Below, piece after piece: positions 1,973 to 54,719 of a DNA stretch of 64,000 bases. The stretch comes from Coriolopsis trogii (taxonomy: Eukaryota > Basidiomycota > Agaricomycetes > Polyporales > Polyporaceae). The DNA lies in NCBI GenBank assembly GCA_020543525.1, contig JAHYIO010000031.1, positions 2,480,001 through 2,544,000 of the forward strand. Reading direction: 5' to 3'. Numbering within the stretch: position 1 is the first letter of the stretch; the number at the start of each line of letters is the position of its first letter. Made by a program: the position numbers and the translations under genes. The notes beneath the pieces are model-generated. The model worked only from the letters and a program-made list of their open reading frames with translations, did no database searches and was not told the origin of the DNA.

Positions 1973-4149
1973 CAGTCATTTACGACGCGGACGATGCGCA
2001 CGGGAAGAGACTTGTCGCAACATGATGGCCGATGGGCACCAGATCGACTGTATCATGCGCACCGACTGGGGCATGTCTGCCAGCGGAAGGGAAGCAGCCC
2101 GCTTTCCTTACTTGTCTCCCGCCCACGCCTCCCGATCGGGTTTCGCAGTATTCATGCATCGTTCGAAGCTGCATATCCCTCTTTGGCCATAATGCTCTGC
2201 CCTCCCTCCGCTCTTCCCATTTGCGTACGCTGCCTTCGATCGCATTCCGTACCCTCTCTTCATTCTCTCCGCCTCGTTCCGTCCGGTCTCTGAACCTCGT
2301 CCCGTCCCCAGCCGTCCGCCCACCAGCCTCGAGTTCAGTTCTATACGTCAGCCCCCGCTGTGATCCAGGGTTCCCATGTCGCCCACCATCTCGTGCATCT
2401 CTATCTCACCTGTCAATATACCGTCCTTGTTCTCCGACACGTTATCCTCCGATCCACGCCCACTTCTTCATTTCGGCTTACGGGTCAACGCGCAGCCCGC
2501 CGCTCACCTGCATGATGATCTGTTACGTGGGCGTCGTCCCAAGCGTCTAGAGAACAACAATGCCCGTAATGTACTCCGTGCATCACCGCCAGCTGCTTCA
2601 CGGAGATTTGCCTGGGCCACGGCGTGTGAGTCCCTGTCGAGAACAAAGACGCAGAGTTCAAACAAGCGCTGAGACATGGGGTGCCATGAGCGCGGACGAC
2701 CGAATGGCGCGTGTTTGCTGCGTGCCGAGAATCTATCTGCTCATGAGAGTGGCGAATTTTTCTTCTCGAAGATCAGCTCCATCGAGATCCTTGCGCGAAA
2801 TTACAGCCTCTTTCTCGGCACCCAAAAACCGTGAATGCGCGCCCTGAGTGCTGAGCGCTGAGCTCCCAAGAGCCGCTTGCCCTATGTGGCACCGGAATGC
2901 AAGTCAGGGAGTGTCGAGAGTTGATTGGTCCCGAGGCAGGTGCTGGTGCGCCTCTCCGGAGCGGATGACATGTGGGTGTCCAATGAGAGGACGTCCTGTC
3001 GATGCGCGTCTTGGGCAGGGCCATCCACAAGTGCAGATCCGCTGCCCTCATAGGAGGAGAGAAGGTCAGCCGTCCGATCAGTAAGGACAACCATGACGGG
3101 TGCGTAGGTCCGCACACGAAGCAGAGAAGGCCGATGGAGTGTTACGACACAGTTCTTACCGCATGGAAGCCTCCCCACGGGTCGGTCTGGCATACAGGGC
3201 ACACCTTCCGTCTAGAAATAACACCGAGGCCGATTCAAGCCTATGGGAGCATTCAAAGGGTGAGGAGAGGCCGGATGCACCGGGTGTGACACGCCGGTAG
3301 GGAGAGGTCTGTCCGTATAAGAGTCAGTCGTTACCGCAAAGAGATACTCGCGTACATACGTACGCAACCGCACTGCTGCAGATGAAGAGGCCAGCCATCG
3401 ATAGTCTTATCGATATTACGGAAGGCCTAGGAAGCCTGTGGATACCAGCCGGCCTTCACGAGGACGATGCTATGTTTGGCGAGGTCAAGAGGGGTTTGTG
3501 GAGGTGCGAGTCCATGTGCGATACATGTGCAGGCCCAGGTATAGGAACCCCAGAGCTATTCGGAGATGTATCTCATATGAGATGGATCTCCTCCTGACGT
3601 CGGGGGAAAAGTGGGCAGCAGCGAGGAAGGATGTCATCGGTGCGGTGTTGTATAGCGGAGGAGGCCACGATCTGGCGGATGGAAGCCGGATACCATCTGA
3701 CCGAGATGGCAGAACAACGGCATCAATACCATAGGACACGTACATCGTCCTAGGAGTGTGAGATCAGTGCGATATATGGTAATATGCTGGCTGCTGCGAA
3801 GGTCACGTTGATTAATAGCCACAAATGAATGCTGATGAGAAGCCTGCTTTTGTCGCTCGTTCGAATAGAGCAAGGATCGTCAGACCACACTTCGGCGGCG
3901 ACCGGCTCCATGCACACCCAATGAGTTGCAGCGAGCGAAGAGAGCAACCTAGACAATCAGCCCATGAGTGGGAGAGAGAAGCACAACCAGCGTGAGAAAT
4001 CGTTTGGTATAGGTCGTGCCACATTTGGACGGGACCGCTGGAGGAACATATGGCCAGATCAGGGAGGAGACAAACACGTGCAAAGAAAGAAGCGGGCCGC
4101 GCGTGGACGAGCGAGACTTGGCTCTAGACCTGACTCGGACACTGCTCTC
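1973..4149. other. gene-poor interval
   Basis: About 2.2 kb between divergent genes. Open frames on both strands are short, overlap one another, and show no conserved motif. The right end must contain the phosphatase promoter. I see no repeat or RNA gene. Confidence 0.4.
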
Positions 4150-7933: not shown

Positions 7934-9508
7934 TCATGAACTGGGAGGCGAACGGAGAAGTGCACGCACGGACTGCCTCCACCGGAGCATGCGTGGCTTC
8001 CGACGTAATCTGTACGACAGGAGGGCCAGGATAAGGCAAAGTATGAGCAGGATGCGGCGCTTCCAACGGCCCCACCAGAGCACTGCGAGAGTGCGGAGAA
8101 GGTCCCGCTTCCGTTGACGGCCATGTCTTAGACGTGGTGTCGGGGCACCTCGTCCGGAAACGGGGTAACCAAAATACGGGTTAAGATGGGAAGTGGGGGA
8201 TATCGAGGGTACACGGGGTATAGGGCGTTCTGGTGAAAGCGAAGACTCGACCGGGGATGGTACTGCGGAGGTGTCCGGAGGGCGTGATGAGCTTGTCGAA
8301 TTAGTCGCCTCAGGTAGGGTCGACATGTATCTCTCCAAAGGATCCTCGAGGTCCGTGAGTAACGGTAAGTTGCCACCATAATCTGTTTCGTGGTTAGGAA
8401 ACTGCGTTACGACAAGATGCCTCGTCCTCACCGCCTGGCACAGCGGATGGGGGCAAATACTCCAGGAGTTCCTCTTGGGTTGGAAAAAACACTCGCGAGA
8501 GAGCCGACTTGGGCAATGCGCGCCTAGAAGATTTGTGCAACGTTAGCGTCTGCATGCATATATCACAGTCGTCTCCGATGACCATACTTGACTATACTCC
8601 ATGCCCCTGAATGTGCCCAAGAGTAGTTGAGCATGAATACTACCGACCTAACGTCAAGATGCGGAAGAGCTTGCAAAAGTATGGCTACATTACCGGAGGC
8701 AAGCATCCCGGGAAAACGAGGAAGAAGCTCGTAGATGAACCAGCTAATCAGGTCAACGCTTTGCTGGAAAAAGCAACCGTGTCAGCATGACGAGTGCGAA
8801 TGTGACATGACCAGGACTGGGAACGAAGAGACGTACTACGTTCTGAACTGATATGCCACCTATGTCGATGAGCGCGACATATTGCAATATGGGAGTTTCG
8901 GAGCAACGGGTCCCGGCCTGGACATATTCATTGACAGTTCGCAGATGCATTCGGAGGAGCTCCATGTAATGTATCAGAACCGTGCGCACGTCTTTCGATG
9001 GTTCAAACAGCTGGAACAACTTCACGACAATAACCGGCCTGTCAAACGGGTCTCTCGCGGACAGAGGCAGACATCGAAGGAATGGAACTGTTGGGCGGGG
9101 GATATTTTCCGGGATCACGGCCAACCGCCAGAGCAGGATATCGCGCGCGTTCTCGAGTGCGAAAGATATAGTGAATTTGTGACGCTGGAGAACGACGCCG
9201 TTGACGCATCATGCAGCCGAACCAAAAGAAGATAAACGCACTCTGAGCAGCCTGAAGACGGAGTCTGAGATGATGGAGTTGTGTTATATTGGTGCATATA
9301 GTGACAGTCTTGGCCGACACGTACGAAAATCATTTAACCACTCTAGAGCTCTCTGCTCGTCCGCTCTATCCAACCCCAGCTCGTCCACAACTCCTGGCAG
9401 TATATCCGCTTTGAGAGTCTCTTGCAGAGCGCGTGCGCTCGCGACATTGGCATTGTATGATTCAGCGAGCTGCTCTTGTTTCTCCTTCAGGGCTTCCTTC
9501 ACGGACAT
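7934..9508 (-). CDS. CRAL-TRIO (Sec14-like) lipid-binding protein with C-terminal membrane anchor
   Basis: Seven exons, complement(7934..8382, 8432..8523, 8588..8639, 8694..8763, 8840..9184, 9242..9264, 9325..9508), give 404 residues. Exon 2 is a 23-nt micro-exon that restores the phase and supplies the FRLL of the CRAL-TRIO N-terminal helix. Family features in order are the N-terminal helical part ending in RRHKF, a core with RPVIV and QYVALIDIGG, then PRFPGML, VFMLNYSWAHSG, RALPKSAL, VFFP and DYGGNLP. A serine/proline-rich linker precedes a hydrophobic helix (ILLILCLILALL) flanked by arginines, so the protein is probably tail-anchored with the lipid-binding domain in the cytosol. Sec14-like proteins exchange or sense phosphoinositides; the ligand here is unknown. 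An in-frame ATG at 9523 would add five residues. Confidence 0.85.
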
Positions 9509-9523
9509 AGAGCAGGTGGACAT

Positions 9524-11346
9524 CGGCTGAGATGACGCGGAGGCTAGAGAAGGCGACGAGCAGCTCGCCGGGAGGTCGCGCGATGAGGGGAAAGGGAGCG
9601 CATAGCGGCAGCGATGCCGCATGCGCCCACCACCAGCGGCAATTGCAACATGTGAATTCGGTCCGACAGAGTCGGATATGAATTAGGCGCTGCTACAACC
9701 GAGCCTATAGTCACGGTTGGGTTACGGTTCTAGTTCGTCAACAACTCCAACAACGGTCACGCCAGCCCTCCAGCTGATCCTTATGGATCCACGTTCGATG
9801 GTTTTCCAGCAAAGACTGCAGCAAAAATCGTTCTGGAACCAAATGTACGGGTATGATTGCCTTGTCTTCACGACACGGAGCCATAGGACGTTCAGAACCT
9901 CAGGTTATCGTACGTAGGTTTTTCTACCGCCATATGGGCATGAACCTCAATCCGCCGTCACAATACTTACGGAATGCCGACGTTGCAGATCGAACCCACA
10001 AGTTGTGTTACATTGCCAGCAAAACGACAAACTTCGACAGGGCTCCTCATGTGGCAGGAGTTCGCGTTGCATACTCTCGCGACTATATCGGTAACTCTTA
10101 TCCTAGGCTCGCCTCTGACCCTCGCCATGGACGTTCTATTGCCCGGTTAAACTTCGAGAAATGGTTCTTCCATTGTAACTCGGGCACAATTCTCCCTAGT
10201 GCGTATCGCAAGCAACACGTCACACGTAGTAGTCCTTGCGGCAAATTCAGGTTTGGATGCGACCTCTTCCTTATTGCCGGCGGAGCGACGACTACACCAA
10301 GTCCTTCCGACTCATCATAGACGTATGCCTGCCTTTCGTGTATGGCTTCGTGATGGGCGTTCTGCCCTGGCATTCTTGGCGAGGCCGCACACACACACTC
10401 TGCCTCCCACTGGCTTTGTCTCCATCCTCAGTGCCCTATGGACCCTTGAAGATCTGACACGAGCGAAAATTTCGATCCTTGACAGCAACTCAAGGTACGT
10501 CTTCCCATCTCGTAGCAGCCGCGCCTGTCTCGTCTGCATATCGTACTCATACATGGTCCCCGAGCTGCCACCTCATCCGTACGCACGCATGTTGGTGGTC
10601 ACAGGATGCTCATGGTCAACGCGACCTGAGTCATGTTTGCCTGCAGCCAGGCGGTGGGGTTGCTCATGATTCAACTCAAGACTTGATCTGCTTCCGCGCC
10701 TGTATACTCGTGTATTCCTGATTCCGCAACAGTTTGGTAACACCCGTAAGATCCGAGCGCGCAGGTCTGTGGGTACACGGTGTGAGCCGTGTGTACGCAG
10801 AACGCTGCTCGTTCCACCGTCTCTGTGTTCTCCGCCGTCCGTGTAGTTTTCCGTGGGGTGTATTGACGATGTGCGTGGTGCTGAGGTGAAGAGAAGTGAC
10901 GACAATGTGCTCACGTGCGGTATGTTGAAAGTGGCCAGCTGGCGTCCACTCCGCTCTCCTTCTCCCTCTTGATCTCGTACCACCTCCACGCCCCCCTCTT
11001 GCCTCTCTCCGCGCTGTCTTACGTCTCCGCGATATCCTTCCAATCCACGCGATTGCTTCTAGTCGGGCAACGTGTCTCTCCGTTCACTGGCATCCCTCTC
11101 TTTGGCATCCACCCTTCCCGCAAAGCTGGCAATATCAGATAAGGCATAATAGCAGGACTCTGACCCGCACAGGCCTGGCATCAAGCGAGATACGTAGCAA
11201 GTCCCAAGCCCATCCTTCCTCGCTTCAGGTGTATTCGAAGGGTGGTTTTTGACAGCCTCAACCTTACCTACCTCGCCCAATCGCCGTCGGTGTATCAGCT
11301 TCTCCTTACGGCACAGTGTAGATCCCGTCAACGCCAGGCCCACGTC
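9524..11346. other. gene-poor interval
   Basis: About 1.8 kb with no gene I can support. Short frames near 9717-10320 on the plus strand have no recognisable motif and no consistent splice structure. Confidence 0.35.
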
Positions 11347-48225: not shown

Positions 48226-48233
48226 CCTTGTGC
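48226..48233 (+). repeat. 8-bp target-site duplication (left)
   Basis: CCTTGTGC, matched exactly at 52790-52797. Confidence 0.88.
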
Positions 48234-48342
48234 CAGGGATGCGCGGGTCAGCTCTTGACCGCTTGACCTGGTCAAGGGGTCAGTGGGGTCAGACCCGAGG
48301 TCAGACCCCGGTCAGACCATTTCGAGGGGTCAGCACGTGATA
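48234..48342 (+). repeat. left terminal inverted repeat with GGTCAGACC subterminal units
   Basis: CAGGGATG at the tip, then TTGACCGC, three GTCAGACC-type units and the inner block GTCAGCACGTGAT; the right end repeats these in inverse order. Confidence 0.8.
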
Positions 48343-48949
48343 GAACATGGGTCGTGCCTCATGATATATCCAGGCGCGCTATACGGTATAACATACTTGT
48401 GAACCCGACGGGTAAACCAAATGCCTTCCGCGCGGTTGACTGGCTTGTGGAACTCCTCAACCTGTATACAAAGGTATCAAGCTATTGAAGTATAAGTTCA
48501 CGTATGCACAGACTAAAATTGGTGTTTAGGTGACATATGGGGGTGACGGCCCCAACTACACCAAGGATCGCATCATCCTCGAGTCCATTCTTATCAGCAT
48601 ATACCGCAGCACACACGCTGACTTCGAACACATTTTCCACCTGTCTGGCCTCTCACATGCACACAGCAAACCAGACATGACCGCAACCTTCACAAGCATC
48701 CTCGAACACGTCAAGAAATTGCAACCTAACGAGTACAAAGCGGGACGTGCCACTAAATACAAAACACCGAATGTCCTCGTCCGAGGGGCAGCAATAATCG
48801 AAAGCGAGTCGCACCGTACAAAACAGGCGGAAGAAACTAACGTTCCGGATGAGGATCATGTGATGGACGAGGAGTTGAATGGAGATGAGGAGCAGGAAGG
48901 CGAGACGGACCTAACAGCAGACGATCTGAGCGTTGATGGAGTACTATGA
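48336..48949 (+). pseudogene. 5'-truncated DUF6589-like gene, C-terminal part
   Basis: Two exons, 48336..48473 and 48530..48949, joined by a 56-nt intron with GTATCA...TTTAG ends. The protein segment has ILVNPTGKPNAFRAVDWLVE, then LNLYTK, VTYGGDGPNYTKDRIILES and an acidic tail (DEELNGDEEQEGETDL). From memory of the family this matches the C-terminal part of fungal DUF6589 proteins (function unknown; large families in Agaricomycetes). It has no start codon. Its open frame begins at the inner edge of the left inverted repeat, so the N-terminal part was lost when the end of this element formed. It might be the remnant of the element's own mobility gene or captured cargo. It converges on the helicase gene, 10 bases away. 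Confidence 0.5.
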
Positions 48950-48959
48950 TAGAGAACAA

Positions 48960-51591
48960 TTACATACCAGCACCACCTGCCATGATGGACATTGACTGTG
49001 GACGGCGACGGTAGGAGGGCGAATCAACAAAAGTTGACCAGAAGTGCGCGTACCCCTCCTCTGCTGGCGTACCTGCCGGTTGTGGGACTACATCGGCAGG
49101 GGTGTGAGCAGATGATGTGGGGGCATGATTCTCCTTATGTGCTCCCGTGGAGTACGTTGTCGCCGCCGTTTCCCGTGGCGTATACTTGGGACATATCTTG
49201 TTGGATCGGATGTGCCCGATCGCACCGCACGCCTGGCACCTCCGTGAAGACGAGCCAGCAGTGGGAGGTGCAGATGGTACAGGGCGAAGGGGAGTCAGGG
49301 AAGTGGTTGAGATGACGCTGCTTGGGGCATTTACGCCCGCAGCTGCTGCCAGAGGGATGTCGGGTGGATAGAACCTGAAATAAGTAACATGAATCCGAGG
49401 TTTCACGTCCAATTAGCGGAGTGAATATACTTGGGATGAGACGTACCGGTCAATTAGAGCTAGTACACCCCCTCCAAGCTTCCGCGCGCGATTCCACTTC
49501 GTTTCGCGCTTGAGCTGCTCAATCGTTCTGATTTTGCTCACCCGTGCGCAGTCCATAATCCGCTGGAAGATCTCATCCCCCATTACAGCACCATACCCGA
49601 GGTTACGCAGGTGGACCACGCTGTAGAGTTTCACGGTTTGTTCCCGCCGGAATTGGTGGAGAGCGTGTCGGAACTCCTTGTCAGCGTCGGTCATCTTGTA
49701 TACTGAACTGACGCGTGACGCTCGAGGTGCGGTCGGTTCTTTCGATAGAGGAGTGTTGGCAGGGGGGAGAAGGGCAAAGGCGGGGTCATCTGGAGTGCAC
49801 AGCGAGCAGCAGGTAGAGGAGGCAGAGAGGTGACAGTGTGGACAACCTTGTGCGGCGTCAGGCTTGCAGCGGTGATGATCCGACTCTATTATGTAACACT
49901 AGCATATTAGAACGGCAAGACAATGGACAATGAATCGACACTTACCAATTCTATCATTCTCATAGAACGCGGCTATAGGCTTACGGTAACACTTCCACGC
50001 CCGAGTTGCCGCGTTAATCAAGCTGTCAAGCTCGGGCGGTAACTCTTCTGCACCGAGTCGGTGTGTTGCTGTCTTGCCCTTTGTCTCCTTCTGCTGTCCT
50101 GCTCTCGTTTGTGCAAACCCAATCCGGATCTCCTCATATATTGACAGCGGCACGAGGGGCTCGTCCATATCGAGGAGTGGTGGGACAGCACCAGCGTCCT
50201 GCACGCTGCCCACCACTGCTTCTCCGGAGACCGCCGTTTGACGCCCACCAGGACGTTTGGGCGCACCGGGACGACCTTCGGTTCTCTTCCTCCTCTTCTT
50301 CTCTCTCTCGACAACTTGCCTTCCCTCTGCCAGCTTTCGCTTTTCGGCTCTCGCAGCGGCTGCCCGTCTCTCCTCGTTGAAGTACTTGGGTTCAACCAGA
50401 AGGATTGCGACCCCCGTCTGGCCCACTCCTCTAGCAGCGCGTCCCCACCGCTGCCACAGTGTGTCCAAGCCACAGGACGCACGCCACTGGACAACAATGT
50501 CAATATCCGGTATGTCAACTCCCTATGTCTCTTTCGTAAGTCTAGCACGCCGTTGTTCAGCATGAACACGCACCATTCCGAACGCGTCCGTGCATAGTAG
50601 ACCATACAGATTGTGGTCGTGAAATCTGTTGGTCGTCTTCTCTCGGAACCCCGATGTGTTGTTTGCATTAAACTAGGTGATACGTGTCCGGTGCTCCTTT
50701 GGAATACGTAGCCGGAGTACGTCTGCCACCTTCACAGACTCGTCGATGTTGTCGAAGAACACGACGAAACGTGGAAGTGGGCGTGCAGGGGTCCAGTCAT
50801 TGGGGATCAAGAAGTTGAGATCTTTGAAACTTGTAAGTGCATGCCGAATCTTCCGCACAGTGAGAAAAACATTTGGCCGGTCATTTGACCGTCGGATAAT
50901 CTTGAGATGCTCTTGTCGTAGTCGAGCTGTATCTATGACATCAGACAGTACGGTATTGGGCATGGTCGCAGAGGGAAGGAGGAATGGGATTGATATAGGG
51001 ATCATGTTATGCAGACGGCTCGCCTCTCCCATCTCCGGACGGAAAGACTGCCAGGCTTTGAGGAGGTGCGCTTCGTCCCATATGACGCTGATGAGACGCG
51101 CTAGGAAGGCCTTGCTCTTCCAGATTTGCTCGAATACGCCATGTGGCTTAAACACCATCTCGGGGCTCACGGCAATTACACGATACTTGAAGGCAAGGAT
51201 ATCCTTGTATATAACATACTACTAAGTGTCGCATATAGCACTAGAAGCACATACATGCACTCACCTGGATGTTCTGGTGAGTGGCAGTCTCCCCAGTAAT
51301 TGTTATGGCACTGATGCCGAGAGCCTCCAGCTTCTGCTTGTTCTGACTTCCCAGTATATTGAGTGGTGTTACAACTAGCTGGATACCGCCTGGTCGGAAG
51401 AGGAGAGGGATCCAGAATGGGAGAGTCTTGCCAGAGCCTGTACCGGAGATGCATATGACATCTTTGTCACCTTGGAGCAAGGTCTGCGCGACTTCACACT
51501 GCCAGAGACAAGGGGTACATTTGAAGGTTTCGAGAGTCTTGGTTCGGATCTCAGCAATAGATGGTGAAGCAGGAGGCGGGCGGTCAGCCAT
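48960..51591 (-). pseudogene. RecQ-like DEAH-box helicase gene with one in-frame stop
   Basis: Five exons, complement(48960..49374, 49447..49885, 49946..50522, 50574..51203, 51265..51591), make a 795-codon frame with all junctions in phase. Motifs are I GTGSGKT (50-56), II DEAH (152-155), III SAT, and VI QRWGRAAR (343-350). A Lys/Arg-rich linker follows. Near the C-terminus lie a Cys/His-rich segment (CKPD...CPHCHLS...CCSLC) and a knuckle CQACGAIGH. Codon 286 is TAG (50673-50675), within a conserved RecQ-like stretch (RIT*FNANNTS) where relatives usually have tryptophan, so TGG to TAG is the simplest change. Either the gene is newly dead, the stop is suppressed, or it is a sequence error. RecQ helicases unwind DNA 3' to 5'; such genes are expanded in basidiomycetes and also occur near telomeres. 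Confidence 0.8.
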
Positions 51592-52684
51592 GATAGACAG
51601 GAAAGGGAACTCTCTCTTCTCAGCGCACCCACAAAAAGCGCATCAATATCATGTAGGCGGGCGGGTCTCTACCAAAAGGGGTCAGATTGGGCGTCTCGGG
51701 GCCGGTCGCCCGTTATTTACTCGTGTTTGGTGCCAGCCGTCGCTGAGGGTTGAGAGGAAGAACTTTGGCACGTGATGTTTGGCGCTTGTATTATCCAGCC
51801 TGTGTACGCTACTCTATCATAGCCTTGCCCTCACTCTAGAATATCGTTCCTCTCAACCCGAAGCGCACGGTGGGAAGGAGCCTGGTCGGGCACGGTACGG
51901 CGCACGGCGGAGTGGCCGAGGCGTATCGGAGTGACGTGCTTCACAAGGTCGCCCCGCGACACCCCCGCCTCCCTTTCTTAATTAGAATCCGAATTGCTTG
52001 ACATAGGATGTACGTGGACTGCTAGTCAATCAATACACATTGTCTTCGCTATTCGACATCTACCATGCCCACCAACCAAACTTGAAGGTCTCTGTGATAA
52101 GCCTACTTCATCAGGGCTCTACGAAAATTTAGATCAGAAATGACCTGGAAGGCACTCTGTCGGGCCTGTGTTTCCACGACTGTTCATTGTTAATGCTACC
52201 ATGACTGCCTCACTCTGAGAACACGCTGCATCATGATTGTACTATCCTGAAGATGTCTTGAAGGTCATTCCAAGACAGTGCACCTCAGCGAAGGTCTCCT
52301 CCTTCACAACATCTTGGCTTACTCATCAGGCTATTCCATAGCATTTACCAATGAGCTTTGGGATAGGTCAAATCATTATCATAGATGCGGAACACGTGTA
52401 TCTTGAACGCGAGACAATTGCTGCCATAGAGGCACTATTGCAGCGTGAACTTGAAGCACGACATACAGCGGCCGCAGCCGCAGATTACTGTTCTCCTCCA
52501 CGTATATTGACCTACTTCGTTCTACCGCTTCCATAGTATTCAATATACCTGTGTAATGGTGGACGCTTAGCTCGTATAGATTCTGGACGGTTGCCTATGG
52601 AGCTCTGCTAGGGCCAGTATTCAATCGACCGATTGGCTGTACGTCGACCAGCTGGAGTCCGATGCCGGGATGCCGAGTCCGGGA
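51592..52684. other. helicase-upstream region inside the transposon
   Basis: 1.1 kb between the helicase start and the right inverted repeat. It should hold the helicase promoter. A short plus-strand frame at 52351-52536 starting MSFGIGQIIIIDAEHVYLER has helix-like composition (ETIAAIEALLQRELEARH) but no known motif. Confidence 0.35.
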
Positions 52685-52789
52685 CCCTCTCCTTGGCCAT
52701 CACGTGCTGACTTTTTGGACCGGTCTGACCTTGCGGTCTGACTGGGGGGCGGGTCTGACCCGGTCTGACCGCGGTCAAGCACATCCCTG
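52685..52789 (-). repeat. right terminal inverted repeat with GGTCTGACC subterminal units
   Basis: Inverse counterpart of 48234-48342: ATCACGTGCTGAC inside, four GGTCTGAC units, GCGGTCAA, and CATCCCTG at the tip. Confidence 0.8.
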
Positions 52790-52797
52790 CCTTGTGC
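52790..52797 (+). repeat. 8-bp target-site duplication (right)
   Basis: CCTTGTGC, matched exactly at 48226-48233. Confidence 0.88.
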
Positions 52798-53261: not shown

Positions 53262-54719
53262 TCAGGCGAGAGCGGCGAACCCGACCGCGTTCTTCTCGAA
53301 CGAGAACGCGGTGTAGACGTTCTTCATGAAGCTGTCACCGAGCAGCCAGACGTTGCTCCCGAGCCCGAGGTCCTGGCCCGCAAGCGCACCCACGCACTTG
53401 CCAGACCCGCTCGAGGTCTCGCCAAGGTTGAAGCTGCAGTAACCATAGCACGCGCCGATCAGCATCCTGTCATCTCGTATACCGATTCAGCAAACGGAGC
53501 ACGTACTTGTCAGCAGAGATCGTCCACTGCTTCCCGCCCCATGAGAACGCGACGGTGGGGGGCGAGTTGCAAGGGTAGTAGTAGTAGCCCTGCGAGGAGT
53601 CGTACACGCCCGAGCCGGAAATGGCCTTGTAGAACGCCCTCACGGCCGAGGGCGGGCCGTACATGATCGTGGTGCCCGAATCGATGATGGTCTCAAAGCC
53701 GGAAACGGCGGCCTTGCCGTTCACGAGCGCGGACGCGCCCGTGATTTGCCAGAAGCCGGTCGAGGTGTCCACGTTGTGATACTCGAGCGAGCCCGTGTAG
53801 AGCTTCGAGTTCGTGCCGCCGAGGTAGAGCTCAGAGCCGGTCGTGGCGAGCTTGAACCCGAACACGTCCTGGGAGACGACCTTCTGCGAGAAGGCGGTGT
53901 TGAAGAAGGGGTTCTGGGAGCATAGAGGTCAGCTATGAGTGTGTGGGCTGTGACCTGCGAGGGATGGACATACGGCGTTGAGGTTGGAGATGGCGGGGTA
54001 AGCGAGACCCAAGATGCCGTCAATCGGGTCGCCGTTGAAGCTGCTCGAGAGCGTCGTCACAGGCGAGAAGGTCTGCGACTTGACAGCAACACCAGCGACG
54101 GTGACGGTGTCGGTGTAGACCGGGCCGGAGACAGTGGAGCCATCACCGTACTCAATCGAGAACGAGCCGCTCTTCTTGGACGCGGTCGAGGAGGACGAGG
54201 CGGCGTATCTGCTCTTCGAGCGGCAGGTGGAGCTGGTGCAGGAAGAGGACGGGACCCAGAGGTCGGACGAGCCGGTGTCGAAGTCGATGAGGAACTTCTG
54301 GCCGGGGGTGCCGATGGAGATCGTGCCAGCCCACTCGAGGTCGTCCTCCTCGTCGGTGAGGGGCTCAGCCTGACGCTTGGCGAGGTGGCTGGGGAGGACA
54401 GCGAGAGGCCGGATGGCCGCGCCCTCCTTGAAGACGTGGGCGCCAATGTTCTTCTCCAAGTTGATCAGGTTCGCGCGGTGCTTGCTGGAAAGTGGGCGGC
54501 AATGTTAGCACTGCCGCGAGAGGAGGTATGGAGGTGTACGTACTTCTGCGTCTTCACTGTCTGGATGATAGCCTTGTCAAGGTTGAAAGTACCATCCTCG
54601 TTGGTGAGGGTAGCACGCTTCCCGAGGGGGATGCGGATGCCGGTAGCCTGAGGCTCGATGGGGCTCGCGGACGCCACGAGGGCGAGAGCGACGGTGAGCA
54701 ACGTAGCCTTGCAGAACAT
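53262..54719 (-). CDS. secreted pepsin-family (A1) aspartic protease, polyporopepsin type
   Basis: Four exons, complement(53262..53433, 53507..53913, 53974..54484, 54544..54719), give 421 residues. A signal peptide (MFCKATLLTVALALVASASP) precedes a pro-segment ending in a Kex2-like KR pair (residues 95-96). The mature enzyme has catalytic Asp128 in DTGSSDLW, the flap tyrosine in IEYGDGS, and catalytic Asp307 in DSGTT. The last part (FNLGETSSGSGKCVGAL, LLGDSFMKNVYTAF) is typical of basidiomycete A1 proteases. There is no tail after the fold, so the enzyme should be freely secreted and act in acid surroundings on external protein. For the last intron two acceptors are possible; the one giving ...NFNLGE fits the family best. 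A TATA box lies about 100 nt upstream. Confidence 0.95.

Follow-up and report, generated by a model that had tools for sequence, protein, structure and literature searches.

A stretch of 64,000 nucleotides of the Coriolopsis trogii genome (contig JAHYIO010000031.1, positions 2,480,001 to 2,544,000; hereafter the window) contains at positions 48226–52797 an element with hAT-like ends, which encloses a RecQ-like helicase sequence and a fragment of the domain of unknown function DUF6589. This arrangement raises the question of whether a hAT-like element carries and spreads these genes or whether the genes themselves take part in mobility, and an earlier note on this DNA had offered both possibilities. 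Our analysis did not bear out carriage by the hAT-like element, while it supports a part of the genes themselves in mobility. Two observations that the note itself had set against carriage were made: our searches of this genome gave no further copy of the outer ends, and near-identical helicase copies are located outside such ends. We regard it as highly probable that two transposons are superimposed at this locus, a non-autonomous hAT-like outer element and a dead, truncated AcademH-like inner element, with DUF6589 acting as the transposase of the latter.

All genome searches were performed against the genome of the window itself (38.8 Mb in 39 contigs) and scored only the best candidates, so that the resulting counts are lower bounds. 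Using the interior (48343–52684) as query, we obtained near-identical matches to positions 48352–51884 on C34 and C36, and no match outside the window extended beyond 48352 on the left or beyond 51887 on the right. Both matches lie in transposons with inverted repeats of their own, and the outer hAT-like ends are absent from these two copies. Including them, we examined four copies with both ends, measuring 5,971 bp on C34, 7,377 bp on C36 (with an insert of 1.39 kb), 5,975 bp for a diverged copy on C20, and 6,066 bp on C1 (C1:3870141-3876206). Each of these copies of 6.0–7.4 kb contains a DUF6589 gene and a helicase, starts with CAGGCTCC, ends with GGAGCCTG, and has inverted repeats of about 210–240 bp, which are 83–99% alike. 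A perfect 9-bp duplication borders each of the four (GATTATTCA, GTCTACTCC, AGGTCACGC and ACACCGGTC, the last one read by eye), and a short derivative on C1 (L022) shows another one, GAACGCGCG, likewise read by eye.

Some of these loci contain further repeats. The insert of the C36 copy (L020, about 2304–3698) has the termini CATCAGG..CCCTGATG, which resemble the PlavakaB ends given in an excerpt of PMC12730594, and a 2-bp duplication, CT. C34 (L019:8392-8932) and C20 (L021:8078-8611) share a short element with the termini CAGGACCCCTGAATATA..GGGGTCCTG, which measures about 540 bp, is 95.8% alike at the two places and has 6-bp duplications (ACTCCG and TTCGGA). The C20 copy also lies between inverted repeats that are about 285 bp long and 79% alike (L021:701-985 and 8921-9205), and these could represent an older element or two gene copies in inverted orientation. 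On C34, we observed a 308-bp inverted repeat, 100% identical, with a spacer of 250 bp (L019:9036-9343 and 9594-9901), which is truncated by the border of the sequence examined there.

Compared to these copies, the inner fragment of the window (48352–51884, minus strand) has retained its right part and lost the left one. On the right it ends at 51884 with the terminus of the second transposon (GGAGCCTG, 51877–51884), whereas the left border at 48352 falls within intron 2 of the DUF6589 gene, the 3' end of which occupies 48352–48373 on the plus strand according to a splice model taken from the C34 copy. The gene models were drawn by eye from the sequence; they continue with an exon at 48374–48473, containing the motif FRAVDWLVELLN with the putative catalytic Glu, and the final exon at 48530–48949 coding for 139 amino acids, both on the plus strand. 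The DUF6589-like fragment claimed in the earlier note was confirmed by a Pfam match of 8.1e-11 at 48267–48488 on the plus strand, which covers only 42 positions of the profile (325–366 of 410). The same note had described a RecQ-like helicase gene, of which the helicase stood and the gene status did not: the minus strand gives matches to DEAD helicase (1.2e-9 and 4.6e-6) and to a CCHC zinc knuckle (1.1e-7), and the reading frame from 51591 to 48960 (minus strand, start codon 51591–51589, knuckle at about 49167–49244) belongs to a pseudogene, since an in-frame TAG interrupts it at 50673–50675, a position at which C34 and C36 have no stop and read Trp. The C36 helicase contains a stop at another position.

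The fragment is 98.0% identical to the C34 copy and 98.7% to the C36 copy, which are themselves 98.4% alike, and it is therefore young. It has lost one inverted repeat, most of DUF6589 and both putative catalytic Asp residues, and its helicase is interrupted by the premature stop; judged by these features, the young copy is dead. We infer that an element of about 6 kb inserted into the outer one and was then deprived of its left end by a deletion. Alternatively, the helicase/DUF6589 piece may be cargo that the hAT-like element picked up, for instance when a gap left by excision was repaired, and now moves. Indeed, hAT-like ends, both intact and accompanied by a perfect 8-bp duplication, enclose the piece entirely, and the left junction at 48351/48352 is not a transposon terminus. 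Nevertheless, we consider capture unlikely: the C34 and C36 copies of this sequence lack the outer ends, these ends have no second copy in our genome searches, and the right junction coincides exactly with a terminus of the inner family, which favours insertion over capture.

The borders of the outer element agree with the earlier description. It extends from CAGGGATG at 48234 to CATCCCTG at 52789 between two perfect 8-bp copies of CCTTGTGC (48226–48233 and 52790–52797), which were read directly from the sequence. The left inverted arm (48234–48341, plus strand, CAGGGATG..CACGTGAT) is rich in GGTCAGACC and aligns with the right arm (52699–52789, minus strand), with the similarity of both arms extending to the common word CACGTGAT. 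Aligning the left 118 bp with the reverse-complemented right 118 bp resulted in a score of 88.5, compared to a best score of 54.5 and a mean of 37.1 in 500 shufflings of the right arm. A spacer of 10 bp (48342–48351) separates the left arm from the inner fragment, defined by the start of the C34 and C36 matches at 48352, and the remainder of the outer element (51885–52698) contains no Pfam domain over the cut-off and has no second genomic copy among the matches found. A Pfam scan of eight interior open reading frames (E up to 1) revealed no transposase domain, hAT or other, consistent with the earlier statement that no known transposase is present inside. Next to the outer element, an open frame at 53470–53928 (minus strand) resembles part of an aspartic peptidase when inspected by eye.

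With its 8-bp duplication and the inverted termini CAGGGATG/CATCCCTG, the outer element resembles hAT transposons of the Ac/Hermes type, the CAGGGATG end being one that we take to be identical to the end of Ac. It differs from them in having no transposase gene, in being found only once, and in an interior filled by another transposon. Because no hAT domain was detected in the eight frames, it looks like a hAT-like element that is non-autonomous at most. Any movement would have to be effected in trans by a hAT transposase encoded elsewhere in the genome, and 15 matches to the hAT dimerisation domain represent a possible source; neither CAGGGATG nor CATCCCTG was seen at the 12 loci examined around these matches. 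DNA searches with 187 bp from the left and 290 bp from the right end, which may skip common words, did not yield a second copy. Allowing up to three mismatches, we found an 18-base pattern of the ends at 826 and 769 places, compared to 616 and 636 for the reversed control, and an exact match was found in the window only. The 18-mer CAGGGATGCCGGATTCAG (nine places with up to one mismatch) was tried as a candidate for other hAT ends and dropped, as its places are never closely paired and enclose nothing excisable. Because the outer element was found only once, there is no sign of it ever having transported the inner piece elsewhere.

The helicase and DUF6589 occur together well beyond the near-identical copies. 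The C20 helicase as query produced 25 genome matches grouped into 12 loci, and the Pfam DUF6589 profile 21 matches, also in 12 loci, excluding a weak match of 50 amino acids at C1:28871. As counted from the match coordinates, 10 of the 12 helicase loci have a DUF6589 match at a distance of 1.6–2.6 kb; the other two are an exon fragment (C28:1330837) and a weak match of 2.2e-4 (C3:2445199), while DUF6589 stands without helicase at C7:495855, a locus riddled with stops, and at C3:1146739. The genes are convergent in eight pairs and divergent in two (C28:2.25 Mb and C20:31 kb). Sorted by their ends, four of the ten pairs have both intact, one end is present in the window and at C3:3.54 Mb, and none in the pairs at C20:31 kb and on C30. 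The pair at C36:453 kb has 349-bp repeats of 99% identity with the terminal motif missing at one end, and the distant head-to-head pair at C28:2252543-2260089 is bordered by 80-bp inverted repeats (92.5%) of a different sequence starting with CCCGAACG, for which a target duplication was sought and not found. We did not see CAGGCTCC in the stretches examined around five other loci, and this end is thus demonstrated for the clade of the window only. Judged on the related C20 protein, the helicase is best labelled RecQ-like: it matches WRN (3.7e-16), RECQ5 (6.9e-15) and the RecQ family model TIGR00614 (E 2.5e-26), for which its 92.5 bits remain under the curated cut-off of 219.8.

Together with this co-occurrence, predicted folds and retained acidic residues indicate that DUF6589 is probably the transposase of the inner element. 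AlphaFold models of proteins from two distant DUF6589 clades gave DDE transposases (Hermes and P element) as best alignments in both cases, taken from VIA-align lists in which the absence of a family does not exclude it; Foldseek by itself was weak for the clade-2 model. The modelled protein shows an RNase-H-like core into which a helical domain is inserted, as in the DDE superfamily. Acidic residues are conserved at three places of the fold, namely strand 1, the segment following strand 4 and a late helix; the putative catalytic acids D249, D429 and E683 are conserved and have matching counterparts in clade 2, the choice of the Glu being our assignment. These residues were counted, omitting gapped rows, in two alignments of 39 of 78 proteins and of 44 among the best 120 of 313 matched proteins, both picked by eye for length. 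Accordingly modelled, DUF6589 would bind the long inverted repeats, excise the element and join it to the target with a 9-bp stagger, and the RecQ-like helicase would probably unwind or remodel DNA during excision, insertion or repair. One may object that the fold similarity is long-range and based on models, and that DUF6589 could be an accessory DNA-binding protein of 6-kb elements which are moved by another protein in trans. This would surprise us greatly, given that the coding matches found in the four both-ended copies are those to DUF6589 and the helicase, that transposases are the best fold matches of both clades, and that the acids are conserved at these three positions.

As first posed, the finding is an ordinary one, and the lasting point is the probable transposase function of DUF6589: instead of the mistaken idea that a hAT element carries helicase genes, there is now a testable one, that this protein is probably a transposase paired with a RecQ-like helicase. 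Many members of DUF6589, a domain of unknown function, occur in mushroom-forming fungi, from which all named members among the matches listed originate. A literature search for the name DUF6589 retrieved no paper, and one for PF20231 returned a false string match and others that were judged from their titles alone. If DUF6589 is a transposase, annotators could mask the DUF6589 and helicase genes, which would otherwise be counted among the gene families of the host, and one could study what a helicase contributes to a cut-and-paste transposon. More tentatively, and with rather more doubt than belief, we suggest that DUF6589 may be the DDE transposase of a broad two-gene, RecQ-assisted cut-and-paste group with AcademH as one branch, and that the DUF6589 expansion of Agaricomycetes and much of that of RecQ-like genes may consist of transposon genes. 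Clade 2, with 80-bp repeats and other termini (one locus examined) and genes arranged head to head (two loci), would then represent an undescribed lineage.

For the classification of the inner family, we compared it with three known groups. Mutator-like elements typically combine long inverted repeats with 9-bp duplications, as does the inner element, and Kolobok elements have a target duplication of TTAA. Membership in the former was rejected because Pfam (E up to 0.1) lists DUF6589 only and no MULE transposase domain, and membership in KolobokH because five different 9-bp duplications were observed instead of TTAA; unlike in KolobokH, the helicase is also not located downstream within the same protein. 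The DNA transposons of the AcademH group were reportedly described by Kojima in 2020. Fungal KolobokH elements share with the inner element that they encode a RecQ helicase, as stated in an excerpt of PMC9587614. Another helicase-bearing lineage, either KolobokH or an unnamed group defined by DUF6589, could be invoked on this basis, all the more as our filing under AcademH was made from duplication length, helicase content and copy number. We hold such an assignment to be improbable in view of the 9-bp duplications: excerpts of PMC10045372 give 9 or 10 bp for AcademH and 3 or 4 bp for AcademX and tie this difference to the encoded helicase and nuclease. All four both-ended copies, which also contain helicase matches, and the L022 derivative agree with the value for AcademH, the window copy being one-ended. 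Unlike in AcademH, the inner family encodes its helicase separately, on the opposite strand. Because the elements fit the described combination of duplication length and helicase as well as the low copy number reported for AcademH in Basidiomycota, Ascomycota and Mucoromycota (excerpt of PMC10799480), the inner family of this basidiomycete probably belongs to the AcademH lineage.
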